Shown: piece by piece, positions 20,041-59,722 of the stretch | How the letters are laid out: the number at the start of each line of letters is the position of its first letter | Position numbering within the stretch: position 1 is the first letter of the stretch | Assembly (NCBI GenBank): GCA_001051155.2 | Contig: JYIP02000004.1 | Span: forward strand, 4,954,383 to 5,018,382 | DNA: 64,000 nucleotides | Source: Chrysoporthe austroafricana | Taxonomy: Eukaryota; Ascomycota; Sordariomycetes; Diaporthales; Cryphonectriaceae | Reading direction: 5' to 3' | The notes under the pieces: generated by a model | Told to the model about the DNA's origin: nothing | Databases searched by the model: none | What the model saw: only the letters and a program-made list of their open reading frames with translations | Position numbers and translations under genes: made by a program

Positions 20041-20509
20041 ATTACGAAAAAAAGCGAAAAATATATTATATTAAATGCATATATTAACGGGCAGCAATAT
20101 AGCATACTTTTAGATAATAGCGCATAAAAGAATTTCATTTTGCTAGAAATTGTTAATAAGGAACGAATCTTTTAAATACAGAAAAAAAATCTTTATAAAC
20201 TCAATATTATAAAAAGAAAAGCGGTTGCATATAACCTTAATATAATCGATATAGAAATTAATTACTTACTTATTTCGATTTAAAGCTTTATAATGGAAAC
20301 CACTTTCGATATTATAAATATAGCATAATATAAGTTAATTTTAAAAATACTTTAATTCAACAAGCATAACCCTTATATCGATTGGATTACTAGCCAGATT
20401 TTATAAAAATAAGCTATACTTATTGAAAAGGTTGCAATTAACGAAAGAAGAAAAGACTTAATTATTGAAAATAATATTAGAAATATGCATTTAAACAGGC
20501 TTAAATATA
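20041..20509 (+). pseudogene. Protease and start of pol of B
   Basis: The motif Y-I-N-G-Q-Q-Y-S-I-L-L-D-N-S-A (ancestral LLDSGA) is followed by N-F-I-L-L-E-I-V-N-K-E-R-I. The catalytic Asp is kept and the Gly lost. A second hydrophobic block (Y-I-D-W-I) near 20375 is typical of the linker to RT. The frame is cut at 20509 by A; the next bases of B are at 27730. Confidence 0.75.
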
Positions 20510-20926
20510 TATTATAAACGCTGCAGCAAATCCTAAGATATACTATAGAGTTAAAGGGTTTATGCTAATAAGAGCGATACCAAATATAGCTTTAAGCTCC
20601 AGGACGGGTTTACTGAATATCGCAATGTTCATAAGCCAATATGGCTATCAATAGTAGAACCCAATTGATACTTAGATTGACAATTGAAAAGCTACTTATC
20701 TATCTAGCCAGGGAATTCTTCAGTTCTTATATATCTGGTTCTTTGTTTTTAGCCTATAATTGCTCGATAGGGCTTATTGCTGCTTACTGGGCCTTAGTAA
20801 GCTGGGCTAAGCCCTTATAACCCTAACTCTAACTTACGTAATTCCTGCGGGGCATATATCCCTATTCTACTACTTAAGCGAGTATTAGGGTTTCATTCCT
20901 TCTATTTCGTGCATTGGTTCATAATA
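20510..20926 (-). repeat. 3' LTR of A (417 bp)
   Basis: Ends are TATTAT and ATAATA. The internal side starts TTATCCCCTTCCTATC, which on the element's sense strand is the polypurine tract GATAGGAAGGGGATAA. A degenerate telomere-like pair (CCCTAACTCTAAC) lies at 20820-20833. Confidence 0.92.
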
Positions 20927-20994
20927 TTATCCCCTTCCTATCAGTTATTATTCTCAATAACCTTCTGTAAGCCCCTTATAACCCCTAGCTATTT

Positions 20995-21022
20995 ATCGTA
21001 CCTTCCTAATCAGGATATCTGG
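20995..21022 (+). promoter_or_regulatory. Conserved near-palindromic block upstream of antisense gene (A)
   Basis: The core CGTACCTTCCTAATCAGG with following ATATC is found about 100 bp upstream of the antisense start codon. The same block occurs in D (37898-37924), E (56431-56456, minus) and B (about 31471-31495, minus, weaker). CCTAATCAGG is a near-perfect inverted repeat. It lies outside the LTR and outside any frame, so a promoter or regulator site for the antisense gene is the simplest inference. Confidence 0.6.
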
Positions 21023-21122
21023 CAGGATTAGCAAACCTCGTAATTTTCCGTTTTCCTTTTCTTCCAAGAGTCTTGCTCGCCTTAAGCGATTTTCCTTTAT
21101 CGAGTCCCGAAAGTACGAAATT

Positions 21123-21467
21123 ATGCCTTGTTCCTTCTGTCTTGAAAAGGGCTTATTATGCCGTATAGTAGATAGGGTTAAGAGTTGTTCCAATTGTACG
21201 AAGCGGGAGCGTTCTTGTAATGCCGGCAGGGTTCCGTTATCGTCTTATGGGTCTTCCATTCTGATTTACCTTTCCTTCTTCTTTTCTGATTTCGTTATAG
21301 TATTACGAGTTATTAACGAATTGTCCCGGATTGACGGTCGCGAGGTTGAGGAAGAAGGCCGGCTTCTCGAATTCCAGATTCGTATAACCGAATCTCTGGC
21401 TCGTCTTGCACGGCTAAAAAAACAATATCGCTTTCTCCAGGAAAAGGGGATAAAGCTAGTAAATTAA
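21123..21467 (+). CDS. Antisense zinc-cluster gene of chromovirus A
   Basis: A 114-codon open frame on the strand opposite to pol, between the chromodomain and the 3' LTR. Residues 3-34 give C-X2-C-X6-C-X8-C-X2-C-X6-C, the spacing of the fungal Zn2Cys6 binuclear cluster, though the usual Arg/Lys run after the second Cys is replaced by LEKGLL. A hydrophobic stretch (about 45-60) could be read-through of a small intron or a real segment. The C-terminal half is Glu/Arg/Leu-rich and likely a coiled coil (REVEEEGRLLEF, then LARLARLKKQ). The TAA at 21465-21467 is in the V-N-stop-G-L-E-E-E context; a Gln-to-stop RIP change is likely, as the frame goes on to about 21540 with helical, charged residues. 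Homologues in D, B, E and H sit at the same place. Possible DNA-binding regulator; function unproven. Confidence 0.72.
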   Translation: MPCSFCLEKGLLCRIVDRVKSCSNCTKRERSCNAGRVPLSSYGSSILIYLSFFFSDFVIVLRVINELSRIDGREVEEEGRLLEFQIRITESLARLARLKKQYRFLQEKGIKLVN

Positions 21468-21548
21468 GGCCTGGAAGAGGAAAAGCGTAATCGCGTGGCT
21501 GCCGAGATGCAAGCAGTAGTTTCTGAAAAGTTTGCGGCTGCTATTATA

Positions 21549-21575
21549 ATTTTTTTTTTTTTTTTTTTTTTTTTT
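21549..21575 (+). repeat. Poly(T) tract between antisense gene and pol end
   Basis: A run of about 26 T on the plus strand. In D the matching position (38527-38545) is T-rich too. On pol's sense strand it is poly(A). It marks the meeting point of the two convergent genes and could have arisen from a polyadenylated copy, which is inference. Confidence 0.6.
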
Positions 21576-21589
21576 AAATGCCCTTTCTT

Positions 21590-24500
21590 CTTTATTGCTA
21601 TCTATCCTAGTAGTCAGCTAATGCTTATAATGCATTTCGCAAGTTGCTTCTAGGTTCTTATAAGTTTTTGCTTATTAAATAACCTTTCTATTTAACGAGG
21701 TATTCGGGATTAGGGTTTAGTCCGCAATATCTAAGAATTCGTTCGATTTTGTATTCTAGTTCGTTATTTTTAACCTGGGTAATTCTATCCGTCTTAATCG
21801 ATTTTAGTACTAGTTCGAGAAATGAAATATAGAATACCGGGTAAATTCTTATTCTATAGAATAATGCAAGTTCGAAATTAATATTCGAAATTTTCCTTAA
21901 GATTTTGTATAATCCTAATTTCTTATAGTCCAGGGAATAGGAAAGTCTTATTATTTTGATATATTCCTTTTATCGGATAAAGTAAACTTTATTTCCTTTT
22001 TATAGGATTGGTCCTTTAATCCTTTTGGAATTGGCATATTTCGTTATTCTTTCTTGCATAAATTTCAGTTTTTTCTGAAATTCTTCCTGGATTTCCTTGA
22101 TTTTTCTAATTCGTTTTTCCGCAGCTTCTGCATTTGCTCCTAATAATTCGTTATAGTAAGCTATCGGGTTATAGCCGTAAAGTACGTAAAATAGTAATTT
22201 CTTTATTATGCTTGTATTTGCATTATTATATGCAAACTATATTAGTAGTAAGAAGTTAACCTAATTATCCTGTTCGTAATTCATATAATATCGTAAGTAT
22301 TGCTTAATAATCTGGTTAATCTTTTCCGTTTGTCCATCCGTTTGCGAGTGAAAGGCTATAGATATTCTTTATTATGTTTCGAGTAGTTTTATAAGTAAGG
22401 TCCAGAAGTTTAATACGAACTTTCTATCTCTATTGGAAATGATTTCTTTGGGTATGCTATAATTGGCTATAACCGTTCTCAGGAATATATATGCGAGGTC
22501 TTTTGCTATGCTACTTTCCTTATAAGGGAAGAAGTAAGCGTACTTGTTCAGTTTGCAAACTATTATTAAAATGCTATTATATTGTACTTTAGTTAAGGGT
22601 TTTCGTAAGAAAGGTAGCTTGGTAATGAAATCCCAGCTAATAGATTGCTAAACCGCTTCCAGAATAAGGAATAGTTAGAGTAATCCATAAGGCTTGTAAT
22701 ATTCAATCTTGTTCTTCTTGCAGCTATCGCATTCCCGTAAGATATTTTCGATCTTTTATTTAAGCTCTGGAAAATTCCAATATCTTTTGATTCTTTTATA
22801 AATAGCTCTGATTCCTTAATAGCCATATGCCGGTATATTATGCATAATTTTGATATATTCGTCTTATTCCTTAATAATTATATTTTCTGGCTTTTTCTGC
22901 TTATTATTGATTCTGATAATCGTATTGAGTTCTTTTATTTCGTTTATAAAGCTGCTATCTTTATCTTTTCTAAAGATATTCTGGAATTCTTTTGGCTCTG
23001 AATTTTAGTAATCTGGTTATTTGCTAAATACGTCTGCTCTGCTATTTTCAAATCCTTTATAATGGACAATTTTCAAATCGAATTGCAAGAGGAATTCTGC
23101 CTATTTGATCTATTATTTATTCAAAGCCTTAATAGTTATAAATATTATCAGATTTTTATAATCCGAATGCATTATAATCTAGTATTTAGTTCCGATTAAA
23201 TATCGTTACTATTTTTCGAATGCCTTAACAATTGCTATCAATTCCTTATCTGGAATACTGTAATTGAGCTCTAGGCCGTTCAGTTTTTTTGAAAAGTTGC
23301 TTATAATTCTGAAGCGTTCTTGATTATCTCATTATCCGAGCTGTCCGCCTAGAGTATAATCTGATATATCGGTTTCTATTTCGAAAGGTTTCTCTGGATC
23401 CGCTTTGCAGAGAATAGGTTCTGATATAACTCGTTCTTTGATTTTGTCAAATGCTTTCTATATTTCAGAAATCTATCTGAATTTTCGATCTTTTTTTGTA
23501 AAATCGGTAAGAAAGTATGCGATCTTGCTATAATCTCGGATGAATTATTAGTAGAAATTAGCATATCCGAAAAATGCCCTAATATCCTTAACATTTCCCG
23601 GGATAAGCTATTCTTATACCGCTTTGACTTTATCTTATTGCATGCTAATCTATCCTGGTTCGATAGTATAGCCAAAATAATTAACTTTTTGCTAATAAAA
23701 ATAGCATTTGCTTAGCTTAATTAAGAATTTGTTATCTTGCAATATTTGGAATACTTCTTGTATATGCTATTTGTATATCTCGAGGTTTTTGGAGAAAACC
23801 AAAATATTATCAAAGTAAATAATAATAGTAATATCCAGAAATTCGTACAGGACGTAATTAATCATTTCTTGGAAAGATGCTAGCGCATTTATAAATCCAA
23901 AAGGCATAATTATATATTCGAAATGTCTATAGCGTATTCTGAAAGCTATTTTCCAAATATTGCCTTTTTTGATTCTAATATAATAATATCTTTCTTTAAG
24001 ATTAAGCGTAATAAATTATTTTGTTCCAATTAATCGATCCCTTATTTCGTTTGCTAACGGCAATAAGTATCGATTTTTGATAGTAATATCGTTAAGCTAT
24101 TAGTAATCCATACAAAATCGTAATTTGCTATTCTTTTTGAATACGAATAGGATAGGGTATCCTATTAGTAATCGCAATAATCGTATATAATTTCGTTTTA
24201 GGTTTTCGTTAATATATTCCCTAAGCATTTCGAATCTTGCTTTATCAAATCTATAAATAGGGAAGAATTTTAATTGCATTCTTTCTTTTAAAAGGATTTC
24301 GTAATCGTACGAACTATATTCTGGTAATCCCGTATCGAACTTCCTTTGCTATAGTTTCTTGAATTCGTAATACTCTCTTAGTATATTCTCGAATATCGGT
24401 ATTAGTCCTTCTTTATCTTTTGCAATTTGTAAGAATATAAAGTACTATTATGCATATCTTTCTTCGCTAGCTTCTTGTTTCTGGGGCTTTCGTATTTCTA

Positions 24501-25170
24501 GCGGTTTCGGGTATTTATTGAGTACCGAGCCGAACTGCTTTCTAGCGTATTCGTATTGTAAGAACTGTATTTCTTTATAGTTCTATAATCCATATTTCTT
24601 CGTATTGTTCTATATTTAACCGTATTTCTATCGGTCGATAGTTACTTATAATTTTGGTTTATCCTTAATTTTTGTCTAGAAGTTCAAGGTATTCGTAACC
24701 TTTCCCTATATCGTAGCTTGTCTTTCAGTTTTAAAGGTACTTATAAGCTTATTTAAGCGCATTTCTCTTATGCTATTTTCAGTAATTAAGTCTTTTCCTC
24801 TATTAATAATTGCAACCTTTTCAGTAAGTACGGCTTATTCTTATGAAATCTGGCTAATAATCTAATCGATTCGAAAGTTATATTTCTTAAGCTAAAGTAT
24901 TTCCAAAATCAACTTATACTATGCCGTATCTGTAATATCAAAAGTAATATTCGTTATAAGTCTTTGGATCGAAATAAGTAAATAATTAGTTTCCTTATCG
25001 ATTATATTTAGGTTGTATACAACCGATTTTCCTTTTATAGTATTAAGCTTATAAGAATCCTTCTTTTGCATCCAGGGAATTCAATCCTTATTAACGATTT
25101 TAAGCGAAATAAAATTTCTTTATATGCCGCTATCCAATAATACGCTATATTATTGCCCTTTAATATATGC
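21590..25170 (-). pseudogene. Pol of A: protease, RT, RNase H, integrase, chromodomain
   Basis: Read from right to left. The protease near 25150-25115 shows L-L-D-S-G (catalytic triplet intact). RT at about 24150-23700 shows H-F-E-Y-I-I-M-P-F-G and Y-F-D-N-I-L (ancestral Y-x-D-D; second Asp changed to Asn). RNase H spans about 23400-23000. Integrase has a zinc-binding part near 22850-22700 (C-D-S-C) and a core near 22590-22280 (I-I-V-C-K-L-N-K, I-I-S-N-R-D-R-K-F). The chromodomain at about 21775-21610 shows L-E-Y-K-I-E-R-I-L, E-Y-L-V-K-x-K-G-Y and N-L-x-E-P. Stop codons fall at Gln and Trp positions. Short open frames at 22593-22826 and 23376-23675 are out-of-frame shadows of integrase and RT/RNase H. 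Confidence 0.85.
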
Positions 25171-25999
25171 TTTTAGAATAATATGCTCTTCGTTTTTATT
25201 AATAATAGCATATAAGGACCTCGTAATTCTGATTGGCTATTATTCCATTACAAGCAATCCTTTCCTTTTGGGATATACTGGGCATTTTTCGCTACTTATT
25301 ATGCTAGCCTTTTTGCTTAAGCATAGCCTTGCTGCCAATTCTTTTCGATCTTTTGCAGCCTATACTATTTTTCAGCTTTATCCTATGTATATATAGAGCA
25401 TGCTATTACGTAGCATTATCCCTATATAGTCTTTCTATCGACGTATATTCGTAAGCAATTATCCGGTAATCCAATATATGCATTATTATTTTCAATATAT
25501 AAGACTTTTCTGAATCTTCCCTTTTTTTCCGTAACGGGATAGATCAATTAGTCCTATTCCTTTAATGGAAATTAATCTTATTTAATTTTCTTGCTAAAAT
25601 ATATCTGGCAATTATAATAAATGCAATTAATCTAAGCAAGTTTATAATAACGAAAATATAAATAATTAATCTTTCCGTTTTCTTGGAATAAATATTTACT
25701 ATTCTGAAATAATATGCTTTGGAAAAGTTCTTTTATTATAAGCCCGTAAATAATATATTCAATTTCCGTATACTTAATTATCCATTCGTATTTTTCGCAA
25801 TTTTTTTGCTGGAAATAGGCTATTTCTTCTAATAATTTTTCATTAAGAATGGGAATTAGTAAGTTATCCGGCTATTTGTCGGAATATATTAATCTTTCGG
25901 CAGTATTGCTAGGTATTGGTAATTCTGGTTATATAATGCCGATTTCCTTTTCTACTATGCTATTCTATTGCCGTTCCAGATAGTAATTTAAAAAATAAA

Positions 26000-27250
26000 T
26001 CCTTAAATTTTCTTTATTTTGTAAAAGTCTTTCGCTAGAGCAGTCGGAATCGTTATCTTGGATAACAATATTATAAAATGAGCTTTTCTTGCCTATAGCG
26101 AGTTGTTTTTATCCCCGAAACTTGCGTAAGAATTATCCTGAACTTTCCTTTTCCGAAAAGTGCAATAAGCAGTAATCTTAATAGCAGGCTATCCAGTTAA
26201 GGCTGCTATAATCAGAATCCGTTATTTATTCCGGTAGGATATTTTTGTCCAGCTGATTGGGTTCCTATTACTGGGCGACGTTAAGCTATCTCTCTAGGAC
26301 CGGTTTCCATTCTCGTTTCTTTTGCTCTTGCCGACAATTGCGGGCAATATAGCCTTTCTTGCCGCAATTATAATAGGTAACCCCTTTATATTATCCATAT
26401 ACGAGAATATCTAGTTCTATAGGCTTAGCGTATATAATGCCTGAATAGGCCGTACTATTTTTGCCTTTATGCTAGAACTTGCGCTTCCTAGTATTCGGCT
26501 AATAGCGCGGGATAATACCGTAATTCTTCTGCTATTATTGCTATCGTTCGTATAGTCGGTTATCGATTCGTATTGCCTTATTGATAAATTCGCTAAGTTT
26601 CTCAAATCGGTTTTCTTTATAGAGTTTGTCCTTGATTTCTTCTTTAAGTCCCGTATAGTAGGCATCCATAAGGGGATTGTTATTGTAATTGAGATAGGCG
26701 ATAATCTGCCGGAATTTGGCCGTATAGTTTGCGGCTGAACCGGTTTGTCGAAATGCCTCTAATTGCCGTACCGCAATATATCGCTTGTCCGGGTCTCTAA
26801 AAGTCTTAGTAAGAGCTGATTCGAAATTAGTATAGCGCTAGAAGATACGCTTAATCTCTTCTGAGCGGAGCTCTTTACTATTATCCAAATAATCGCGAAA
26901 GGTTAGCTCTTATTACTGGAAAGCCATTCTTTCAAAACGGCTTCCTGCAAAGTCGATCTTATCGTAAGTAGTTCTGAACTGAGTATTATAATATTTGAAA
27001 TACGCCTTGAATTGTATTAAGAAAGCCTGAAAGTCTTTTCGAATACTTTTGTAAGGGCCTAGTTTATCGAGCTTAAAGGCCTTAGCTTACTAGAAAGCAT
27101 TAAAACGGATAATCTTATTCTTGATTTCCTCAAGCTATTAATACAGGGCTATATTTTGCTGCTAAAGCTATTCGTTAATAAGGGCAACCAGTACTTCTTC
27201 CTGAAAGGCCTGGATATTGGACGAAAACGAAATCTGGGGCGCTATTATAT
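26000..27250 (-). pseudogene. Gag of A
   Basis: Reading leftward from about 27250: an N-terminal Gln-rich part, the gag domain (A-Y-Y-T-G-L-K-E-E-I-K-D-K-L-Y and N-K-A-I-R-I-D-N-R-L-Y-E-R-R near 26700-26550) and one knuckle near 26389-26335 (Y-N-C-G-K-K-G-Y-I-A-R-N-C; His and first Cys now Tyr). One of the better kept gags here. The segment 25171-26000 between gag and protease is degraded linker without a visible domain. Confidence 0.8.
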
Positions 27251-27307
27251 CCTGGATATTACTTAAAGGGTATATATTAAACCGATTTTGAATAAGAATT
27301 ATCAAAA

Positions 27308-27724
27308 TGTTATGAATGCTGTAGCAAATCCTAAGATATACTATAGAGTTAAAGGGTTTATACTAATAAGAGCGATACTAAGTATAGCTTTGAGTTCCAG
27401 GACGGGTTTATTGAATATCGCAATATTCATAAACCAATATGGCTATCAATAGTAGGGCCCAATTGATATTTAGATTGATAATTAAAAAGCTACTTGTTTA
27501 TCTAGCTAGGGAATTTTTCAGTTCTTATATATCTGGTTCTTTGTTTTTGGCCCATAGTTGCTCGATAGGGCTTATTGCTGCTTACCGGGCTTTAGTAAGC
27601 TGGGCTAAGCCCTTATAACCCTAACCCTAACTTACGTAATTCTTGCGAAGCATATATCCCTATTCTACTACCTGAGCGGGTATTGGGGTTTTATCCCTTC
27701 TGTTTCGTGCGTTGGTTTATAACA
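27308..27724 (-). repeat. 5' LTR of A (417 bp)
   Basis: Ends TGTTAT and ATAACA are intact, giving the unmutated terminal inverted hexamers of the family. A clear telomere-like TAACCCTAACCCTAAC lies at 27616-27631. Left of the LTR the element's sense strand starts TTTTGATAATTCTTATTC, the putative primer-binding site. Confidence 0.93.
27616..27631. promoter_or_regulatory. Telomere-like repeat in LTR of A
   Basis: TAACCCTAACCCTAAC is the cleanest example of the motif in the window. It lies between a GCTTAC/GTAAGC hairpin and the outer LTR end, in U3, where regulatory sites are expected. Confidence 0.65.
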
Positions 27725-27729
27725 ATATA

Positions 27730-30929: not shown

Positions 30930-31381
30930 GCCAAATCGATATTAGCTTAATTAATATCGGGACCGAATTATTACAAAACGATATCCAAATCGAAACTTTC
31001 AGGAAAAAAGCTTTCAAATACTAAAACTTCTAAAGCGCGATATTCGGCTTTAGCTTTGCAGCGTTCCTCTTTAGCTTTTTCCGCTTCCAATTGCTCTAGC
31101 TCTTTAATATTATCGATATCCTAACAAATAGCCCGTATTATCTTTTCATATTATATACATTTCTGCTAATGCAAGCGAAATACTTTTTCCTTTACGGCTT
31201 TCAATTCCTTTTCTAGCTTCTAATACTAATAAGCTATTTTGCGAAACTTATCCGGAATAATTCCCAAGATATTATACTAGGAGCGGTTAAGCCGTATATA
31301 TTCCGAATAATAAGAAAAATCTTTTTCCGAAACTTGACAAACGGAAATACTATAACCCTTACAAAACGAATAAAAAGGCAT
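30930..31381 (-). pseudogene. Antisense zinc-cluster gene of B
   Basis: Starts at the ATG complementary to 31379-31381 (M-P-F-Y-S-F-C-K-G-Y). Cys positions are mostly turned to Tyr by G-to-A change, but spacing and flanks (C-Q-V-S-E, then R-L-N-R-S) match D. The distal part keeps K-L-E-K-E-L-K and E-L-E-Q-L-E-A-E-K-A-K-E-E-R, a coiled-coil type stretch. Stops are TAG/TAA at Gln-like places. Same place as in A, D and E: opposite strand, between chromodomain and 3' LTR. Confidence 0.72.
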
Positions 31382-31567: not shown

Positions 31568-32005
31568 TATTATAACTTAGCTAGGAATTAAAGTTGCGAT
31601 AAAAGGAATCCGATATTTAAGCGCTTAATTCTTATTTACTTAGAAAAACCCCGAATATAACCTGCTAGGGTTAGGGTTAAATAAGATAAAGATTATTAAT
31701 TCGCTTAATAATCCGGCAAGCTTGGATTTATTAAATTATCTAATAAGCTAATAATCTGTAATTAGAAAGCTGAATATATAAGAATAGAATATTTATTAAA
31801 TAAATTACTATAATTTTTTAGTTGTAAATTTAAGTATTATTTGGACTTTATATTATATTCCAGTAATAGCTATATTGGCTTATAAATATTATAAATATTC
31901 CCCGAATATATTCTTAATATTCAAAATTATATTTAATATTGTTTTTACTAGCATAAATTCCTTAACTTTATAGTTTATCTTAAGATTATTGCAGCATTTA
32001 TAACA
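31568..32005 (+). repeat. 3' LTR of B (438 bp)
   Basis: Ends are TATTAT and ATAACA. It is preceded by the purine tract GATAGGAAAAAAGATAA. It keeps the telomere-like GGGTTAGGGTTAA at 31665-31680. TSD ATTAT follows. Confidence 0.92.
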
Positions 32006-32776
32006 ATTATATACGGCTATTAGCTTTGCATGCTAATATATTCTATTGTAACTTTACTTTATATTTACTATTATTATATTTATTTAATACTTTATTATTT
32101 AAAAGCTATATTTTCTATTAATATTTACAAGCAATTTTAATCTTTAATTATATTTATACTAAATATTTTGGCAGTAAATACGATTAAGCATTACCGAAAT
32201 ATATTTAAATATCGGCTAGCTTTATTATATACAAGTATTATATATATTTATTTATCTTAAGTATAAACTGATTGTAATAGAAGATTAATTCTAAGCTTCC
32301 AGTACGGGCAGGTTTTCTTTTTAATTCCCAGTATAAGCATATTTATTATTCAAGTCCCCGGTATAAATATATTTACTTATTAGAATTCTAGTACGAATCA
32401 GCTTTATAAAACGATTATTATTTTCTATATAATCTCTTTTATCTAATAGTACTATTATGCTTTTCTTTGCTATATAACCCAGGGTTTTATTATATCGTAT
32501 TACTGCTACTCAAAATATCTCTAATTATTAGCTTCCTTTATAAATAAAAGTTATAAAGGGCCGGCAATTAATAGCAAAACCTATAAATATAGTAAATTTA
32601 TAATGGATTCGCTTAATAAATCTATAATAAATCCCTTAATAAATACGCAATAAATTTATTAAGTAAATGCTATACCCTTACCGGAAGGCTTATATAATGC
32701 TTTAATAGGCTTTTAGCGTAATTTACTTTTTTAAAAGAACGATACTTTATAATATATTTCAGTACGTTTACTATTA
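32006..32776 (+). mobile_element. C3, 3' end: ORF2 tail, non-coding region and LTR
   Basis: C3 resumes after B. ORF2 continues 32011-32266 (TAA at 32264-32266, same spacing from the ATG at 32030 as in the other copies). 32267-32568 is the C-family 3' non-coding region with CCCGG/CCAGTATAAGC units. 32569-32776 is the 3' LTR (208 bp, TAATAG...CTATTA). The right flank GCTTC (32777-32781) should be the TSD; the left one is outside the window. Confidence 0.87.
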
Positions 32777-37291: not shown

Positions 37292-37825
37292 TGTTATAAA
37301 CGCTGCAGCAAATCCTAAGATATACTGTAGGGTTAAGGGGTTTATGCTAACAAGAGCGATGCTAGATACAATCTTGAGCTTCAGGACGGGTTTACTCGGT
37401 ATCGCAATATTCATAAGCCAATATAGCTATCAATAATAGGGCTCCAATAATACTTAGATTGACAACTGGAAATCCTATAGCTAATTCCCTAAGGAACGTT
37501 CCTCGCTATCTATATACTTTGTTTCGTAAGCGAGGCTTACTGGCTTACCTAGTAAGCGGGTGAGCGTGGCTTACTGGCTTACCTAGTAAGCGGTAAGCGT
37601 AGCTTACTGGTTTACCTAGTGAGCGGGTAAGCGTGGCTTACTGGCTCACTTAGTGAGCGGTAAGCGTAGCTTACTGGCTTACTTGGTAATCTGGTAATCC
37701 TTATCTTATCTAACCCTAACCCTTGCATGATTCTGGGATTCGTATGCCTGGTATAGTGATTTCGGTAGGTGGGTCGTTGGTCTATTTTCCTCTCTTCCTG
37801 GTTTCGGATTTGTGGGTTTATAATA
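37292..37825 (-). repeat. 3' LTR of D (534 bp)
   Basis: Begins TGTTAT, ends ATAATA. Longer than other LTRs because of the tandem array at 37534-37690. A telomere-like TAACCCTAACCCT follows at 37711-37723. Just inside the LTR lies TCATCCCCTTTCTTATC, the complement of the polypurine tract. The open frame 37723-37911 runs across the LTR end and is not a gene. Confidence 0.93.
37534..37690. repeat. 33-34 bp tandem array in LTR of D
   Basis: Four full units and a part unit of the type GGCTTACTGGCTTACCTAGT followed by AAGCGG(G)TRAGCGT. Each holds the hairpin CTTAC-CTA-GTAAG. The other D LTR has the same array at about 44501-44658. Other LTRs carry only one or two related hairpins at this place, so the array grew in this subfamily. 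Confidence 0.85.
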
Positions 37826-37897
37826 TCATCCCCTTTCTTATCGGCATTAATGTCCCTATCAATCCCTGTAAGAATTTCGCATCCTCTTACTTGTCTT

Positions 37898-37924
37898 TCG
37901 TACTTTCCTAATCAGGATATCGGG
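37898..37924 (+). promoter_or_regulatory. Conserved near-palindromic block upstream of antisense gene (D)
   Basis: TCGTACTTTCCTAATCAGG then ATATCGGG, about 80-105 bp before the ATG of the antisense gene at 38004. Differs from A at one base in the first 19. Confidence 0.62.
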
Positions 37925-38003
37925 TAGGGTGCAAAAGAATCGTTCGCTCAAAACCTAGCGGCGCGACTCCTTCCTGGAAGCGATCTTTCAATGCGCTATA
38001 CAA

Positions 38004-38468
38004 ATGCCTTTCTGTTCCTTTTGCGAGAGTTGCGGAATCCCTATCTGCCAGGTCTCTAAGCGAGACTCCTCCCGTTATTCTGAATGCGTACGGCTTAACC
38101 GTTCTCGTTACGATATGCTGGGCGTTTCTCCCGACGAGTTGCGCAAGATAGCTTGCCGCTATTAAGAATTGGAAAACGAACTAGAGGCAGCGGAAGAGAA
38201 GGTTTTCCGGCTCTGTCGCCAAAAGCGTATATAATATGAGAAGATAATGCGAACTATTCGTTATGGATTGTCCAGTCTGGAAAAGTTGGAAAAGCTGGAA
38301 GCCGAAAAGGCCGAAGAGGAAAGGCGCAGGGCTATAACAGAATGTCGAGCTGCGAAGCCCTTAGTTCCCGAAAGTCCTTTTCCTGAAAGTTTTGATTTGG
38401 ATGCCGCCTTGCAATAATTTAGTTCGGGATCGGAATAGCCCGTACTGGACCTGGAAGCCAAGCTTTAG
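38004..38468 (+). pseudogene. Antisense zinc-cluster gene of D
   Basis: Starts M-P-F-C-S-F-C-E-S-C-G-I-P-I-C. The frame is unbroken by indels for 154 codons to TAG at 38466; internal stops are TAA/TAG in Gln-like contexts. Cluster spacing is C-X2-C-X7-C-X12-(C/Y)-X2-C-X7-(C/Y). Then V-S-P-D-E-L-R-K-I-A, two helical charged blocks (L-E-N-E-L-E-A-A-E-E-K-V, then S-L-E-K-L-E-K-L-E-A-E-K) and an acidic-aromatic motif F-P-E-S-F-D-L-D near the end. Longer than the product in A and of a different subtype. The minus-strand frame 38261-38461 is its shadow. Confidence 0.75.
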
Positions 38469-38599
38469 GGTTCTTCAGGTTTTTCGAGTACGGGTTTCCT
38501 TGCTTAGGTAATCCCGGTAAGTAAAGTTTTTTTTTTTTTCTTTTACAAGTTCACCCTTTTCTATTATTGCTTGTTCAGGTAATCTTCTAATGCTTGAGG

Positions 38600-41500
38600 C
38601 GCATTTCGTAAATTAATCTTGGGTTTCCATAAGTTTTCGCTTGCTGGGTACTTTTTCTATTTGATAAGGTATTCGGGGTTGTAATTTGGCCCGCAATGCT
38701 TAAGGATTCGCTCGATTTCGTATTCCGGTTCGTTGCTCTCGACTTGGATAGTTTCGTCGGTTTTGGTTAATTTCGGTACTGGTTCGAAAAACGAGATATG
38801 GAATACCGGATGGATTCTTATTCTATAGGGTAATGCAAATTCGAAATTGATATCTGAGATTTTCCTTAGGATTTTGAATAGTCCCAATTTCTTGTAATCC
38901 AATAAGTAAGAGGGTCTTATTATTCTGATATGCTCTTTTCGCCGAATAAAGTAGACTTTATCCCTTTCCTATAGGATTAGTCCTTCAATTCTTTTGGAAT
39001 TGGCGTATTTCGTTATTCTTTCTTATACAAATTTTAGTTTTTTCTGGAATTCTTCCTAAACCTTTTTGATTTTTCTGATTCGTTTCTTTGCAGCTTCTGT
39101 ATTCGCTCCTAGTATTTCATTATAATAGGCTATCGGATTATATCCGTAAAGTGCATAAAATAATAACTTTTTCGTTATATTTATATTTGCGCTATTGTAT
39201 GCGAATTGCGCTAGAAGTAAGAGATTAACCCAATTATCCTGTTTATAGTTTATATAATATCGCAAATATTGCTTGACAATCTGGTTAGTCCTTTTTATTT
39301 GCCCATCCGTCTATAGGTAGAACGCTATAGATATTCTCTATTATATTCCGAGTAATTTTGTAAGTAAAGTCCAGAAGTTTGATACGAACTTCCTATTTCT
39401 ATCGGAAATAATTTCCCTAGGCATGCTATAATTGGCTATAACCGTCCTCAAGAATATATATGCAAAGTTTTCTGCCGTATTGCTTTCTTTATAAGGGAAG
39501 AAATAAGCATACTTGCTTAGTCTGCAAACTATTATTAAAATGCTATCGTATTGCACTTTAATTAAGGGTTTTCGTAAAAGAAGTAGCTTGGTAATGAAAT
39601 CCTAGCTAATAGATTGCCAAATTGTTATCGGGATAGGGAGTAATTGGAATAGTCCGTAAGGCTTGTAATATTCGATTTTATTTCTCTTGCAGCTATCGCA
39701 TTCTCGTAGGATATTCTCGATTTTTCATTTGAGTCCTGGCAAATTCCAGTATCTCTTGATTCTCTTATAAGTAGCTCTAATTCCTTAATAGCCATATACA
39801 AGTGCATTATGCATGGTTTTAATATATTTATCTTATTCCTTAATAATTATATCTTCTAGCTTCTTTTGATTGCTATTAATCCGGATAATTGTATTGAGTT
39901 CCCTTATTTTGTTTATAAGGCTGCTGTCTTTATCTTGCTTAAAGATATTCTGTAATTCCTTAAGTTCTATATTTTAGTAATCTGCTTGTTTGCTAAATAC
40001 GTCTGCTTTGCTATTTTCTGATCCCTTGCAATATACAATTTTTAAATCGAATTGTAAGAGGAATTCTGCCTATCTGATTTATCGTTTATTCAGGACTTTT
40101 ATTATTATGAATGTTATTAGGTTTTTATAATTTGAATATATTATTATCTGGTATTTTGCCCCGATTAGGTAATGCTGCTATTCCTCGAATGCTTTTACAA
40201 TTGCTATAAGCTTTTTATCTGGGATGCTGTAATTGAGCTCTGGGCCGTTCAGCTTTTTTGAGAAGTTGCTTATAATCCTGAGATATCCTTAGTCGTCTCG
40301 CTAGCTTAGTTATTTGCCGAATGCATAATCTGATATATCGGTTTCGATTTCAAATAGTTTATTTGGGTCTGCTTTGCAGAATATGGGTTCTGATATAATT
40401 CGTTCCTTAATTTCGTTAAATGCTTCTTATATTTCCCTAGTCTATTCGAATCTGTAATCCTTCTTTGTAAGATCTGTAAATAGTTATGCAATCTTGCTAT
40501 AATTTCGAATAAATTGTCAGTAGAAGTTAGCATAGCCGAAGAATGCTCTGATTTCCTTGGTTTTTTCCGGTACGGGCTATTCTTTTATTGCTTGAACTTT
40601 ATCTTTCTGTATACTAATTTATCTTAGTTCGATAATATAGCTTAAATAATCGACTTTCTATTAATAGAATTAGCATTTATTCGGTTTTACGAGGAACTTA
40701 TTATCCTGTAATATCTGAAATACTTATCGTATATGCTATTTATATAATGCGAAATTTTTGGAATAAATAAGGATATCGTTAAAGTAAACGATAACAATAG
40801 TATTTAGGTATTCGCGAAAGATATCGTTAATTATTTCCTGGAAGGATGCGGGTGTATTGGTCAATCCAAAGGGCAAAATCATATATTCGAAATATCCGTA
40901 ACGAATTCTGAAAGCCGTTTTCCAGATATTATCCTCTTTAATTCGAATATAATAATATCCTTCTTTGAGATCCAGAATAGTAAACCATTTTGCTCCTATT
41001 AATCGGTCTCGCATTTTTCCTATTAATAGTAAAGGATACCTATTCTTGATTGTAATATCGTTAAGCTATCGGTAGTCCACGCAAAGTCGTAATTTGCTAT
41101 TCTTTTTCGGGACAAACAGGATTGGATATCCTGCCGGTAATCGTGATTTCCGTATATAGCCTCTTTTGAAGTTTTCGTCAATATATTCCTTGAATGCCTT
41201 GAGTTTTGCCTGGTCAAGCTTGTAAATAGGGTAGTTCTGCAGCTTTATTCCTTTTTTCAGTAGGATCTTATAATCGAAAAGGCTATATTCGGGTAAGCCG
41301 TTATCGAATTTCCTTTGCTATAATTTCTTGAATTCGTAATATTCCCGTAATATATTTCTGAAATCTGGCAGCAGTCTTTTTTCGTCCTTTGCGATCTATA
41401 GGAATATAAGGTATCGCTATGCGTATCTTGTTTCGCTAGTTTCTTATTTTTGAGACTTTCTTATTTCTAATAGCTTCGGGTATTTGTCGGGTGCCGAGCC

Positions 41501-42130
41501 AAATTGTTTTCTAGCATATTCGTATTATAAGAACTGTATTTCCTTATAGTTTTATAATCCGCATTTTTTCGCATTGCCCTATGCCTGACCGAGCTTCTGT
41601 TAGTCGATAGTCATTTGTAGTTTTAGTTTGTCTTTAACTTTCGCCTGGAAGTTCGAAGTATCCGTAACCTTTCCCTATATTATGGCTTGCTTTCCTGCTT
41701 TAAGGGTATTCATAAGCCTGTTTGAGCGCGTTTTGCCAATGCTGTCCTTAGTAATTAAGTCTCTTCTTCTATTAACGATTGCAACCTTCTCAGTAAGTAC
41801 GGCTTATTCTTATAAGATCTGGCCAGTAATCCAATTAATTCGAGGGTTATGCTTTTTAAGCTAAAGTATTCCCAAAATCAACTTATATTATGCCGTATCT
41901 GTAATATCAAAAGTAACGTTTGTCGTAAGGCTTTGGATCGAAATAAGTAGATAATCAGTTTTTATATCGATTATACTTAAGTTATACGCAACCGACTTCC
42001 TTTCCATAGTATTGAGCCTATAAGAATCTTTCTTTTGCATTCAAGGAATTCGTTCCCTATTAACGATTTCGGGCGAAATAAAATTTCCTTATACGCTATT
42101 ATCCAATAATACGCTATATCGTTATCTTTT
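38600..42130 (-). pseudogene. Pol of D: protease, RT, RNase H, integrase, chromodomain
   Basis: Protease near 42110-42085 reads L-L-D-N-S. RT is partly open (41014-40736): [40 protein letters not shown] and V-Y-F-N-D-I (first catalytic Asp of the YxDD box lost). RNase H is at about 40400-40000. Integrase core is open at 39556-39341 (I-I-V-C-R-L-S-K-Y, N-T-A-E-N-F, I-I-S-D-R-N-R-K-F), preceded by the zinc-binding part near 39800-39640. The C-terminal frame 38902-38657 reads P-V-F-H-I-S-F-F-E-P-V-P-K, then E-Y-E-I-E-R-I-L and E-Y-L-I-K of the chromodomain. The most readable pol in the window. Confidence 0.9.
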
Positions 42131-42949
42131 AATATATGCGTCTAGAATGATATGCTTTTCGTCTTCCTTAATAGTAGCATATAAGGACTTTATAATTCTG
42201 ATCGGCTGTTATCCCATTACAGGCGATCCTTCCCTTTTGGGGTATCTCGAACGCTTCTTGCTACTTGCTATGCCGGCCTTTTTGCTTGGGCATAGCTTCG
42301 CTACCGATTTTTCTCAATCTTTTGCAGCTTATGCTATCTTTTGGCCTTATCTTATATATATATGGAATATGCCGTTATATAGCATTATTCCCATATAGTC
42401 TTTCTGTCGATATATATTCGTAGGCAATCGTCTGGTAGCCCGATATATGCATTATTGTCTTTAATATACAGGACTTTTCTAAGCTTTCCTCTCTTTTCTG
42501 TAACGGGATAGATTAATTAGTCCTATTCCCTGAATAGGAACCAATCGTATTTGACTTTCTCGCTAAAATATATCTAGCAGTTATAGTAAATACAGCTAAT
42601 CCAGGCAAGTTCGTAATAACGAGGGTATAAGTAACTAATCCTTCTGTTTTCCTGGAATAAACATCCGCTATTCTGAAATGGTATGCTTTGGAAGAGTTCT
42701 TTTATCGTAAGCCTATAAATGATATGCTCTATTTCCGTATATTTGGTTATCTATTTGCTGCAATCCTAATAGTTTTTTTGCTAATGGCGGGCTGTTTCTT
42801 CCATTAATTTCTTATCGGGGATTAGAATTAATAGGTTATCCGGCTGTCTATCGGGATATGCTAATTCTTCGACAATATTGCTGGGTAGCGATAATTCTTC
42901 CTCTACTATATTGCTCCATTATCATTCCAAATAATAATTCAAAGGGTAT

Positions 42950-44210
42950 TTTCCCAAATCTTTCCCGTTCTATAAGAGTTTCTCGCTAGAGCAGTCGGAA
43001 TTGCTATCCCGGATAACCGTATTATAAAGTAAGCCTTTTCTGCCCATAGCAAGTTATCGTTATTCCCGAAGCTTGCGTAAGAACTATCCTGAACCTTCTT
43101 TTTCTGAGAGGTGCAATACGCAGTAATTGTAATAGCAAGCTATTTAGCTGAAGCTGCTATAACCAGAATCCGCTGCTTGCTTTAATAGGATATTTTTGTT
43201 TAGCTGATTGGGTTCTTATTGCTAAGCGACGCTAAGCTATTTTTCTAGGACTGGCTTCTATTCTCGCTTCTTTCGTTCTTATCGACAATTGCGGGCGATA
43301 TATCCTTTCTTGCCGCAATTGTAATAAATAACCCCTTTGTATTGCTCGCATATTAGAGTATCTAATTCTATAGGTCCAGCATGCGTAATGCTTGAATAAG
43401 CCGTACTATTCTTGTTTCTATGCTAAAACCTGCACTTCCCAGTATTTGGCTAATATCGCGAAGTAATACTATAGTTCTTTTGCCGTTATTGCTATCGTTC
43501 GTACAGTCGGTTATTAATGCGGACTGCTTTATTAATAAACTCACTGAGTTCTTCGGGTCGGTCTTCCTTATAGAATTCGTCTTTAATTTCTTCCTTGAGT
43601 CTTGCGTAATAGGCATCCATAAGTAATTCGTCCTCGTAATCAAAATAAGCTACGATCTGCCAGAATTTGGCCGTATAATCCGTAGCTAAACCGGTTTATC
43701 GAAATGCCTCTAGTTATCGTATTGCGGTACGTTATTCGTCCGGGTTTCCAAAAGTCTTAATGAGAGCTGATTCGAAATTGGCATAGCGCTGAAAGACGCG
43801 CTTGGTATCTTCCGAGCGAAATTCCTTATTATTATCCAAATAATCGCAAAAGGTTGGTTCCTACTACTGGAAGGCTGTTCTTTCAAGGCGACTTCCCGCG
43901 AAATCGATCTTGTTATAAGTAGTCCTGAACTGGGTCCCGTAATGCTTGAAATAGGCCTTGAGTTGCATTAAGAAAGCCTGAAAGTCTCCCCGAATGCTTT
44001 TATACGGGCCGGGTTTATCAAGCTTAAAAGCCTTGGCTTGCTAGAAGGCGTTAAGACGGATAATTTCGTTCTTGATTTCCTCAAGTTGCTAATATAAAGC
44101 CATATTCTGTTGCTGAAGTTATTTATTAATAAGGACGGCCGGAACCTTTTCCTGAAAGGCCTGGTTATTGGATAAAGACAAGGTCTAGGGCGCTATTATA
44201 TCCTAAATAT
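42950..44210 (-). pseudogene. Gag of D
   Basis: Minus strand, collinear with gag of A. The gag core is near 43700-43520, where the antiparallel frame 43420-43626 is a shadow. The CCHC knuckle at about 43325-43275 reads Y-N-C-G-K-K-G-Y-I-A-R-N-C. The 42131-42950 stretch is the degraded linker to protease. Confidence 0.78.
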
Positions 44211-44258
44211 TGCTCAAAGGGTATATACTAGACCGTTTTTGAATAAGAGTTGTCAAAA

Positions 44259-44792
44259 TATTATAAACGCTATAGCAAATCCTAGAATATACTATAGGGT
44301 TAAGGGGTTTATGCTAATAAGAGCGATACTAGATATAGTCTTAAGTTTCAGGATAGGTTTATTCGGTATTGCAATATTTATAAGCTAACGTGGCTATTAA
44401 TAGTAGGGTTCCAATAATACTTAGATTGATAACTGGAAATCCTATAGCTAATTCCTTAAGGAGCGTTCCTTGCTATCTATATATTTTGTTTCGTAAGCGA
44501 AGCTTACTGGCTCACTTAATAAGCGGGTAAGCGTAGCTTACTGGCTTATCTAGTAAGCGGTAAGCGTAGCTTACTGGTTTACTTAATAAGCGGGTAAGCG
44601 TAGCTTACTGGCTTACTTAGTAAGCGGTAAGCGTAGCTTATTAGCTTACTTGGTAATCTGGTAATCCTTATCTTATCTAACCCTAACCCTTATATAATTC
44701 TGGGATTCGTATGCTTGGTGTGGTGATTTCGGTAAGTGGGTCGTTGGTCTGTTTTCCTTTCCTCCTGGTTTCGGATTTGTGGGTTCATAATA
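44259..44792 (-). repeat. 5' LTR of D (534 bp)
   Basis: TATTAT...ATAATA, same length as the left copy. Tandem array about 44501-44658; telomere-like TAACCCTAACCCT at about 44678-44690. Leader bases at 44241-44258 (GAATAAGAGTTGTCAAAA) read on the sense strand as TTTTGACAACTCTTATTC, probably the unmutated primer-binding region. Confidence 0.92.
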
Positions 44793-49458: not shown

Positions 49459-49903
49459 TATTATAAGCTAATATGCAGAATTAGGATATAGCATTAAAGC
49501 TATTCAAAACGACTTATTCAATGCCGGGATTTTCAGGCTTAGCTGCAAAACCCGACAAATGCTTATATAAGCTAAGGTTAAGGTTAAATAAGATAAGGAT
49601 TATTGAATTACCAAATAAGCCGGTAAGTTAAGCTTATTAGCTTATTTAATAAGCCAATAATTCTATATTGAAAAGCTAGATATATAAAGACTAAATATCT
49701 ATTAAATAGATAGCAATAGCTCTTTAGTTATCAATTTAAGTATTAATTAAACCCTATTATTAATAGTTATATAAGACTTATAAATATTGCGATATTCGTT
49801 AAATCGTATTTCAATATTTAAAGCTTATACTTGGCACTGCTTTTACTAGCATAAACCTCTCGACTTTATAGCACTTTTTTAGCTTATTGCAGCATTTATA
49901 ATA
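49459..49903 (+). repeat. 5' LTR of E (445 bp)
   Basis: TATTAT...ATAATA. TATA-like GATATATAAAGAC in the middle. The telomere-like pair is present in changed form (AAGGTTAAGGTTAA, about 49573-49587). Confidence 0.9.
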
Positions 49904-49989
49904 TTTTAATAACTCTTGTTTAAAGACAGTTTAATATATACCCTTTAAGCAATACTAGAAATACGATAGCGCTTTAAACTTTATTTTCT

Positions 49990-50960
49990 TCTAGCAACCA
50001 AGCCTTTTAAGAAGGAAACCCGGTTATCTTTACTAATGAATAATTCCAAAAACAAAATATAGCCTTATATTAATAGCTTAAGGAAGTCAAAAACGAAATT
50101 CTCCGCTTTAACGCCTTTTAACAGATTAAGGCTTTCAAGTTTGATAAGCTTAAGCTTTACAAAAATACTTGCAGGGATTTCCAGGCTTTTTTAATTTAAC
50201 TTAAAGCTTATTTCAAGCATTACGGCATTCAGTTCAGGACTACTTACGATAAGATCGATTTCGCAAGAAGCCAATTCGAAAAAATAGCGTTCTAGTAATA
50301 AAAACCCACTTTTCGTAATTACCTGAATAACGATAATATATTCCGTTCCGAAGATATTAAACGCATTTTCCAGCATTATTCCAATTTCGAAAAAGCCTTT
50401 ACTAAGATTTTCGGAAACCCGAACGAGCGATATATTGCAATATAGCAATTGGAAGCATTCCGATAAATAGGATTAGCGGCAAATTATATGGCCAAATTCC
50501 GACAAATTATCGCTTATTTCGATTACGAAAACGAATTTTTTATAAACGCTTACTATTTAGGATTCAAGGAAAAAGTTAAGGACGAATTTTACAAAAAAAA
50601 CCGACTCGAAGAATTCAGCGAGTTTATTAATAAAGCGGTCCGTATCGATAATCGATTCTATAAGCGGCGCTAATAACGATAGAAAAACTATAATAACGCC
50701 CCAAAATACTAATTTAATTCGGGGAAATGCAAGTTCTAATAGAAGAAACGGAATAATACGGCTTATTCGGGCATTACGTATACTAGATTTATAGAACTGA
50801 ACGCTTTTATACGAGAATAATATAAGGGAATTACCTATTATAATTATAATAAGAAAAGGCATATTGCTTGCAATTGCTATTAAGAGAAAAGGAAGCGAGA
50901 ATAAAAGCTAGTCCCGGAAAGATAAATTAGTATTGCTTAGCGATAAGAATTCAATCAGCT
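49990..50960 (+). pseudogene. Gag of E
   Basis: From about 50015 the frame reads T-N-E-Q/stop-F-Q-K-Q-N-I-A-L-Y, a Gln-rich helical start, then F-K-F-D-K-L-K-L-Y and Y-D-K-I-D-F-A-R-S-Q-F. The gag core is open at 50488-50673 (A-K-F-R-Q-I-I-A-Y-F, K-E-K-V-K-D-E-F-Y, V-R-I-D-N-R-F-Y-K-R-R). The knuckle near 50836-50872 is Y-N-Y-N-K-K-R-H-I-A-C-N-C, with two Cys altered and the His kept. This copy shows the gag N-terminus best. Minus frames 50191-50448 and 50557-50862 are shadows. Confidence 0.82.
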
Positions 50961-52019
50961 AAGCAATAATATCCAACTGAAATAAGCAGCGAACCTTAAT
51001 TATAATAGCGTAAGCTAAATAGCTTATTATTAAGATTATTGCTTATTGCATTTCTCGGTAAAAGAAAATTCAGGATAATTCTTATATAAATTTAAGGGAT
51101 AGCGGCAATTTGCTATAGGAAGAAAAGGCTTATTTTATAATACGGCTATAAACGATAGCGATTCGGATTGCTTAAGCGACTCGCTATATGCTAAAAGAGA
51201 AAATTTGGGAAGATTTCCTTTAAAAATATATTTCGATTAGCGATAGGAAAAAGCGATAAAAAAAGAACTCAATATATAAGCATTAATATTCAATGCTACG
51301 CTTAACGAAACGATATTATAAGACAAATAGCTAGATAACTTGCTAATTTAGATATTCGAAAAAGGATTTATCGAAGAAATAGGAAAATCAATTGCTTAGC
51401 ATATTAAATCGAATTATTCCAAAAACCGTAATTGAATAACCAAGCATACAGAAATAGAATACTTTATATACGGACTTACCTTAAAAAAACTCTTCCAAAA
51501 TATTCCATTTCAGAATAGCGGATGCAAATTCCAGGAAAATAGAAAGATCAATTATTTATACTTTCGATATTACGAACTTGCTTGAATATATTATATATAT
51601 TACAATTACTAGATATATTTTAGCAAGAAAGTCGAATATAACTAATTCTCAATTAGGAAATAAAACTAATTAATCCAACCTATTATAGAATCTTAAAGTA
51701 AATATAAAAAAGTCTTGCATATTGAATATAATAATATATATATCGGGTTATTAGACAATTGCTTTTAGAAATATATTTAAGGAAAAACAATTTGGGAATA
51801 ATGTTATATTATAGCATATTCTATTTATATGCAAGATAAGGCTAAGGAATAATACTAATTGCAAAAAGCCGAGAAAGCAAGGTAATACGTATAAAGCCAA
51901 ACAAGAAAATTAGCAAAGCAAATAGCGAGATAAGCTTAGAATATCCCAAAAAGGAAAGATCGCTTATAATGGAATAATAGCCGATCAAAGCTATAAAATC
52001 TCTATATACTATTACTAAA

Positions 52020-55000: not shown

Positions 55001-55600
55001 ATAATAGCGCAAATACAAATATAACGAAAAAATTACTATTCTATATATTATATAGCTATAACCCGATAGCCTATTATAACGAATTATCAGGAATAAATGC
55101 AAAAGCAGTAAAGAAACGAATTAAGAAAATCAAGAAAATATAAAAAGAATTATAAGAAAAACTAAAATTTATACAAAAAAGAATAACCCGGTATGCTAAT
55201 TTCAAAAGAATTGAAAGATTAATTTTGCAAGAAGGAAATAAAGTCTATTTCGTTCGACGAAAAGAATATATCAAAATAACCAGATTCTCTTATTCGCTAA
55301 ATTATAAGAAATTCGGATTATTTAAAATTTTGAAAAAAATTTCAGATATTAACTTTGAACTTGTATTACCTTATAGAATAAAAATCTACCCAATCTTTCA
55401 TATTTCGCTTCTTAAACCCGTATTCAAAATAGCCGAAATAAATAATACAATACGGGTAAAAAATAACAAACTAGAATACGAAATAGAACGAATCTTTAAA
55501 TATCGAAAACCAATAAACTATAAGGAATATTTGATCAAATAGAAAAGATATTATTTAAGCGAAAACAGTTAGGAACCAATTAAAAACCTGGCTAATGCAA
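52020..55600 (+). pseudogene. Protease and pol of E
   Basis: Protease near 52055-52110 (Y-I-N-G-Q-Y-Y-S-A-L-L-N-N-S-A) with an A-run frame slip near 52150. RT at about 53085-53470: K-K-N-S-K-F-R-L-Y, Y-Y-Y-I-K-I-K, Y-F-N-N-I (both Asp of YxDD changed). RNase H at about 53840-54240: F-E-I-E-T-D, N-Y-S-I-S-D-K-E-L-I-A-I-V-K-A-F, M-H-S-D-Y-K-N-L, A-F-S-K-R-S-D-Y. Integrase: zinc part near 54400-54540, core 54643-54828 (L-I-I-V-C-K-L-S-K-Y, I-S-D-R-N-K-K-F). The frame 55225-55542 ends in the chromodomain (E-Y-E-I-E-R-I-F, K-E-Y-L-I-K). 50961-52019 is degraded gag-protease linker. Confidence 0.87.
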
Positions 55601-55984
55601 AACAAGCATTCCAGGTTTATTAGGAAAAGGCAGCTACTAGAATATAAAAATTCTTTTAATAAGACAAACCGACTAGTCAAATAACTTAACTAGGAAGCTT
55701 GCTATAATATTAATATAAGCAAACTTATATTAATAAAGAAAAATCCGTAATTAATCAGACAAAATTGCAAATAGTAAAACGCTATTATTAGTTAGCATTC
55801 AGTATTAAAATAAAAGAATAACTAATTAGAAAGACTTATTAATTAATTAAAAGAATAATTAATATTAGAAAAACTAGCCGCATTTTCAAGCTTAACTTTT
55901 GAAATAATAACGGATTAATTAACTTCGAAATTAAACTGCTATAAAGCAATTTCAAAATCGAAATTCTTAAAAAAAGGACCTTTA

Positions 55985-56349
55985 GAGATGAAAAGCTTTA
56001 CAGTACGACGCTCGGCCTTGGCCTTGCAATATTCCTCTTCAGCTTTTTCGGCTTCCAGCCTTTCTAGCTTTTCTATACTATTAATTTCCCGACAAACGGC
56101 CCGTATTATCTTCTTATATTATATACGCTTTTAATATCGAAAACGGAAGATTTTCTTTTCTGCTATTTCCAGTTTATCTTCCAATTTTTTATAATAATAA
56201 GTTATTTTGCGCAACTTATCGGGAATAATGCTTAATATATCGTAACGGGAACGATTAAGCTGCATACATTCCAAATAACGAAAAGAATCCCGTTCGGAAA
56301 TCTAGCAAACCGGAATACTGCAACCCTTATAAAACGAATAGGAAAGCAT
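55985..56349 (-). pseudogene. Antisense zinc-cluster gene of E
   Basis: ATG complementary to 56347-56349. Product begins M-L-S-Y-S-F-Y-K-G-C-S-I-P-V-C; Cys and Tyr alternate at the cluster positions as expected after G-to-A change. Then N-R-S-R-Y-D-I-L, I-P-D-K-L-R-K-I, K-L-E-D-K-L-E-I-A-E-K-K-I and K-L-E-R-L-E-A-E-K-A-E-E-E. Same subtype as D and B. Confidence 0.73.
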
Positions 56350-56430
56350 TTGAACGGCATACTGGAAAATCGCTTCTAAAAGAGAATTACGATATTAAGT
56401 CTTAAGCGAACGTTTCTTTTGCACTCTATC

Positions 56431-59466: not shown

Positions 59467-59722
59467 TATCAAAAGCTGGAAAATGAGATTAAAGAATTCG
59501 AAAACCGGCTAATGCGTTTACGCAAGCAAAAATAGTTATAGCGGAAACGGATAGTACGAGCGTTTTGTCGAAATCTATTCAACTTAGAAGATTTTAAGCA
59601 TATAAAAGCAGAAGAGGCCGAAAAGGAATATCGTAAAGCCAAAGCTAAATATCGTATTGCAGAGCCCTTAATTCTTAAAAGTTTCTTTCCGGAAAGTTTT
59701 GACTTGAATATTATAAGCATAT
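59467..59722 (+). pseudogene. Antisense zinc-cluster gene of H, 3' fragment
   Basis: Reading Y-Q-K-L-E-N-E-I-K-E-F, L-M-R-L-R-K-Q-K, then E-A-E-K-E-Y-R-K-A-K-A-K-Y-R and F-F-P-E-S-F-D-L-N: the distal half of the D-type antisense protein. The zinc cluster part lies on the far side of G, outside the window. Homology stops at about 59712-59722, where the foreign segment begins. A minus-strand frame of 83 codons here is a shadow. Confidence 0.75.

Follow-up and report, generated by a model that had tools for sequence, protein, structure and literature searches.

The window (the whole stretch of 64,000 nt analyzed here, positions 4,954,383 to 5,018,382 of Chrysoporthe austroafricana contig JYIP02000004.1) contains LTR elements that we denote A, B, D, and E, and a fragment denoted H (Table 1). 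In element A, the minus strand has a purine-rich tract right beside the left LTR, which places pol on the minus strand and the antisense gene on the plus strand; the ATG of this gene lies approximately 196 nt inside the 3' LTR. The orientation of pol in A is based on the polarity of this tract and on homology to element B (21558-27481 against 38527-44432, 77% in the self-comparison), and the chromodomain of A itself was not among the matches listed (150 scored of 437 candidates). Repeats were also observed in the window, namely arrays of 34/67 bp of a GTAAGC-type unit in the LTRs of element B (37526-37697 and 44493-44651) and a tandem repeat at 63391-63557 (43-bp unit, 3.9 units, 98% matches).

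Table 1. Retroelements and antisense genes in the 64,000-nt window
Feature	Position	Strand	Remarks
LTR element A, Ty3/chromovirus type, 7.2 kb	20510..27724	-	LTR pair in self-comparison, ends and TSD
TSD of element A, 5 bp, ATATA	20505-20509 and 27725-27729		flanks both ends
3' LTR of element A	20510..20926	-	upstream of antisense gene; inner edge from sequence
5' LTR of element A	27308..27724	-	self-comparison, ends and TSD; inner edge from sequence
Antisense gene of A, exon 1	21123..21246	+	six-Cys region CX2CX6CX8CX2CX6C; ends in phase 1
Antisense gene of A, intron, 54 nt	21247..21300	+	donor GT lost (ATGGGT), acceptor TATAG kept
Antisense gene of A, exon 2	21301..21545	+	charged helical region; RIP-type stop at 21465-21467
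Element B	37292-44792		TSD TATAA
Intronless antisense gene of B	38004..38417	+	with stops
Chromodomain of B	38573-38722	-	Pfam chromodomain listing
Element D	49459-56970		pol on plus strand; TSD ATTAG
Related antisense gene of D	55939..56349	-	with stops
Related antisense gene of E	30971..31381	-	with stops; truncated element, LTR 31570-32011
Fragment H, C-terminal half	59476..59709	+	N-terminally cut

The original prediction placed a gene at 21123-21467. An ORF of 114 aa is present there on the plus strand, but it includes the unspliced intron, the donor GT having changed to AT, and terminates at a Gln codon converted to TAA by a RIP-type change; past this stop, the reading frame extends to about 21545, up to a 26-T run (21550-21575) at which the C-terminal third is missing. 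The gene is real, and the 114-aa ORF is what decay has left of it in this copy.

The window ORF matches 147 stretches in its own genome (48.15 Mb, 22 contigs). Merging matches that shared a strand and were separated by less than 500 nt yielded 82 places, which is a lower bound, so that the gene is present at 82 places at least. The 82 copies were aligned at the DNA level and, after the removal of five divergent ones, the remaining 77 were used to derive the gene model. In the family of A, the gene consists of two exons separated by a phase-1 intron: exon 1 of 124 nt and exon 2 of about 120 codons to the stop, for a product of about 160 aa that comprises the six-Cys region, an apparently helical stretch of charged character, and a tail of acidic and aromatic residues (FDWNS..DWSGF). 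The intron is 53-62 nt long in 63 of the 77 copies (range, 33-290 nt). The donor is GT in 61 copies, AT in 15, and another dinucleotide in one; the acceptor is AG in 56 and AA in 21, and both GT and AG are intact in 45. All 21 acceptor losses and 15 of the 16 donor losses read as G-to-A changes. The divergent copy L045 contains an intron at the identical place and in the identical phase. We also considered intron read-through as the source of the true protein, and rejected this model given the exon junctions, the phase, and the variation of the intron. Long T runs, some with N, were observed inside the intron of five copies (L022, L036, L049, L067, and L075); together with the 26-T run at the lost 3' part of the window copy, they seem to reflect an expanding polypyrimidine tract.

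For 59 of the 82 places, the Pfam chromodomain listing has a match no more than about 2 kb away (none is listed for the other 23); in all 59 cases the chromodomain lies downstream of the gene and on the other strand, at an offset of 466-832 nt (583-603 nt in 49). A search with the L045 protein added 18 places, six with a listed chromodomain and 12 with none listed; all six chromodomains are again opposite and downstream, with offsets of 416-435 nt in four cases and of 1958 and 2100 nt in the other two. For 22 copies taken with long context, an LTR pair delimiting an element of 6.9-7.3 kb was found in 15, whereas three had no LTR pair (two of these at contig ends) and four yielded other repeats. 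In the 15 copies, the ATG lies 181-311 nt inside the 3' LTR alignment (181-205 nt in 12), an alignment that is partial in L011, L019, and L029 and ends early in L013, L014, and L020. By eye, 5-bp TSDs were identified in L030 and L025, and an integrase just before the chromodomain on the same strand, for example, at C1:3201326 and C1:3200570; the genome search with the integrase rve domain listed 32 places, all below the cut-off and none in the window. Thus, the elements combine a chromodomain following the integrase, LTRs, and a 5-bp TSD, as expected of chromoviruses, the chromodomain being found in B as well. The 3' end of the gene meets the end of pol tail to tail, and the ATG lies inward of the 3' LTR, in most cases by about 195 nt. 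The predicted arrangement, a gene common to the chromoviruses, antisense to pol and located between the chromodomain and the 3' LTR, is borne out by the layout of the copies. As in aORF-3R, the ORF is antisense to pol, lies between pol and the 3' LTR, and is present in many copies and conserved as coding sequence. We conclude that chromodomain LTR retrotransposons of one family carry it as an accessory gene, encoded antisense to gag-pol. One locus (G000:C18:3054211-3054660), where a 1371-aa open frame contains two matches to the chromodomain, is probably a host remodeller rather than an element.

The genes in B, D, and E and fragment H can be read as one related, intronless gene. The profile built from the A copies yielded no significant match to any of them (1.3 bits and E = 3.8 for B, 6.1 bits and E = 0.13 for H, with D and E absent from the matches listed); their assignment relies on the homology that the elements share and on how these genes align to further copies from the genome. 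The intronless relative was found in seven further copies, six fetched and one inside L003, and two additional fetched copies, L097 and L098, resemble L045. On this combined evidence, the claim that A, B, D, E, and a fragment in H all carry the antisense gene holds. The full CX2CX6CX8CX2CX6C pattern claimed for A is present as well and, among the window copies, is seen in A alone; B has CX2CX7C plus an extra Cys.

Almost all copies are disrupted: 75 of the 77 contain at least one exon stop, and the other two contain none in the aligned exon columns. Of the 181 in-frame stops, 180 can be reached from the majority codon through transitions alone. RIP produces transitions only, so that transversions report change of another kind. 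On the tree of the 77 copies (160 codons), transversion steps at codon positions 1, 2, and 3 number 15, 10, and 33, respectively (position 2 versus 3, p = 0.0003); for comparison, the 57 columns of the intron hold 30 steps, and the 120 upstream columns hold 41. When two divergent copies are included, the steps number 76, 45, and 116. A cruder and weaker count of columns containing a transversion, position 2 against position 3, gave 4 versus 8 of 41 in exon 1 (p = 0.35) and 6 versus 16 of 119 in exon 2 (p = 0.042). The avoidance of codon position 2 by transversions implies that selection worked on the protein, and this phasing indicates translation of the gene and a benefit to the element. Selection acted at the protein level while the elements multiplied, and RIP broke nearly all copies later; of the gene and its selection we are close to certain.

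A relative from another source was identified in P0001, an uninterrupted protein of 138 aa on a 1,090-nt contig (source label lgn), which shares 68% identity with the spliced L020 protein across 65% of the latter (E = 3e-36). The alignment runs from the first residues of P0001 through the tail and covers exon 2 only; P0001 begins at the exon-2 boundary, which fits the gene model. The protein database contained no match to the unspliced ORF or to the L045 protein, and three scans of viral contigs and genome contigs detected no relative, in collections that we suspect to be poor in fungi. An alternative explanation for the window ORF is that it arose by chance or as an artefact of RIP: an ORF of 114 or more codons starting with ATG occurred in 2 of 500 dinucleotide shuffles (2 kb from 20931), so that ORF length on its own is modest evidence for a gene, and the prevalence of exon stops points the same way. 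The stronger evidence, that is, the 82 or more places, the constant layout, the codon-phased transversions, and the external relative, refutes this explanation, to which we give practically no weight.

The conservation of six Cys positions, part of the original prediction, was assessed across the genome copies of the family of A. Among 456 cells, 294 hold Cys and 160 hold Tyr, the RIP product that results from TGY-to-TAY changes, 454 in all; the two other cells fall in a single copy, and one further copy lacks exon 1. All six Cys are intact in two of the 77 copies, including the window copy. The third Cys (codon 13 of exon 1) stands apart, being Tyr in 58 of the 77 copies. On a tree of 79 sequences, it changed seven times, compared to 14-27 changes at four other positions and four at the sixth, and 56 of these 58 copies belong to one clade of 62, which also includes five copies with Cys. 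A shared ancestor that lacked this Cys is a simpler reading than parallel RIP at a favoured site. Transversions at codon positions 1, 2, and 3 number 4, 2, and 17 among these 58 copies and 15, 9, and 24 among the other 19. The copies with Tyr at the third Cys still show selection on the protein, so a complete set of six Cys may have been dispensable, and a strict requirement for a binuclear cluster of six Cys becomes less likely.

The cluster had been taken for a fungal Zn2Cys6 DNA-binding domain, for which the spacing rule is CX2CX6CX5-12CX2CX6-8C. The spacing agrees in the family of A, as it does not in B, but membership in the domain family was not supported. The gene resembles fungal Zn2Cys6 factors (PF00172) in the CX2CX6CX8CX2CX6C spacing and in the charged stretch behind the cluster, and differs from them in having neither the RxRKxK-like stretch nor the Pro that 12 host domains of this genome mostly share. 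The Pfam Zn_clus model matched window exon 1 at 18.5 bits, below the cut-off of 21, in two stretches, the better of which is the second half and covers half the domain; no Pfam or NCBIfam model matched above its cut-off. An exon-1 profile retrieved no Zn2Cys6 chains from the PDB at E <= 1e-3 (AlcR appeared at E = 9), in contrast to a control profile of 12 host Zn2Cys6 domains that found 24 distinct sequences; a single exon 1 gave one PDB match, at chance level. Comparison of profiles with the host domains aligned half-domains alone. AlphaFold modeling of exon 1 (34 rows, with the Tyr-bearing rows a handicap) produced one helix and a hairpin at a mean pLDDT of 60.3, compared to two short helices at 83.2 for the host control (12 rows). 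Sites with paired CGG were not enriched beside the gene (observed 2, 8, 4, and 7; expected 7.7, 8.0, 7.3, and 8.0). With Pfam below the cut-off and the PDB profile search empty, we rejected assignment to Zn_clus. The six Cys are real and, judged from the sequence, cluster-like, and do not amount to a demonstrated Zn2Cys6 member.

These matches also bear on the possibility that the gene is a captured fragment of a host Zn2Cys6 gene carried as a passive passenger. Of 34 exon-1 sequences, the Cys-richer part of those available, 19 do match Zn_clus at E <= 1, the lowest E being 0.00098. Yet none of the 82 places was among the 149 listed in a Zn_clus genome scan (150 of 219 candidates scored; compared by eye), the layout is common to divergent families in the genome, and the constraint is codon-phased; this origin was already disfavoured, and we consider it improbable.

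Antisense genes in a similar position have been described. Boty-like elements of Botrytis carry an additional antisense gene, brtn (Zhao et al. 2011, Virology 417:248, cited in PMC8365987, PMC7264820, PMC4227169, and PMC5987419), which, like the gene described here, lies on the strand opposite to gag-pol in a Ty3-type fungal element that has a CHROMO domain (PMC4227169). It has been named for Sclerotinia too (PMC7264820), and a Monilinia transcript matches it (PMC5987419). The comparison with brtn is by description only, and the available portions of these reports mention neither a Cys cluster nor an intron for it. In plants, the aORF-3R of Grande (gene23), RIRE2, Retand, and PvRetro13 are likewise conserved antisense ORFs between pol and the 3' LTR, and the Grande gene23 product is reported to be nuclear (PMC7264820). 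The likeness to aORF-3R is one of layout, not of sequence, and Retand, unlike the elements studied here, is not a chromovirus (PMC11963269). Some elements are drawn with an extra ORF in a survey of Tcn1-like chromoviruses, with no strand stated in the part available (PMC2864245). In the accessible portions of the open-licence literature, we found no report of a Cys cluster, an intron, or a selection analysis for such fungal genes. Going by these partial sources, antisense genes at this place are already known in both fungi and plants.

We propose that the spliced product of this accessory gene regulates its own element, a proposal that, taken as a whole, falls a little short of an even chance. 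The transcript would begin in or near the 3' LTR and would then be spliced and translated, yielding a small, metal-binding, self-associating nuclear protein that could adjust the expression of its element. The model for such a role is HBZ of HTLV-1, an element-coded regulator produced from an antisense, spliced gene on the 3' LTR side. HBZ, however, is a retroviral bZIP protein without homology to the product described here, so that the analogy is limited to the way the two would work. The helical stretch may mediate self-association, given a heptad periodicity that stands out clearly in L045, is marginal in both the window copy and P0001, and falls short of significance in L020. The acidic-aromatic tail might serve in activation: by eye it is similar to fungal activation domains. 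A regulatory action of the protein on the element, most likely as a nuclear regulator, is what we infer, with slightly less than even confidence.

Alternatively, instead of regulating transcription, the product could be a structural or replication accessory, for instance an additional nucleic-acid chaperone or a factor for integration or import. A small, charged, Cys-rich protein in which the features of Zn2Cys6 DNA binding were not found would suit such a role, but separate antisense expression would be odd for a particle protein, and the Pfam scans detected no likeness to gag or integrase. We view this as unlikely, although deserving consideration.

The agent might also be the antisense transcript and not the protein. 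Antisense transcription inside an LTR element is known from the antisense RNAs of Ty1, which, in contrast to the elements described here, is a copia element; we know of no such Cys protein in Ty1. The tail-to-tail layout implies that an antisense mRNA would be complementary to genomic RNA reading into the 3' LTR; pairing with the 3' end of the genomic RNA could form dsRNA and trigger RNA interference, or the transcript could act as a Ty1-like antisense RNA. In Botrytis, small RNAs derive from BcGypsy1 (the brtn subfamily), BcGypsy3, and BcGypsy4, according to the available part of the report (PMC8365987). Control by RNA leaves unexplained why codon position 2 changed less than position 3 and why the intron is conserved, and as the sole explanation it appears rather doubtful to us, although it may operate beside a protein function.

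Returning to regulation by the protein, in its most far-reaching form this reading would mean that a fungal chromovirus lineage encodes its own miniature antisense transcription activator, spliced, made from the 3' LTR, and feeding back on the LTR, in which a six-Cys region, a helix, and an acidic-aromatic tail are combined. Such a protein would be an independent parallel to HBZ, with a binuclear-cluster-like domain that is non-homologous, or only distantly homologous, to host Zn2Cys6. To us, this extended version seems a speculative and rather unlikely one.

Retrotransposition probably leaves the intron in place, since what the genomic RNA contains is its complement, and this is not spliced; an antisense intron also fits an element that spreads via its sense RNA and not via the antisense transcript. 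Because RIP is confined to transitions, the mutation spectrum allows selection on the protein to be read off the transversions in the many copies of a single genome, and the question of what the antisense gene does becomes open to direct tests.
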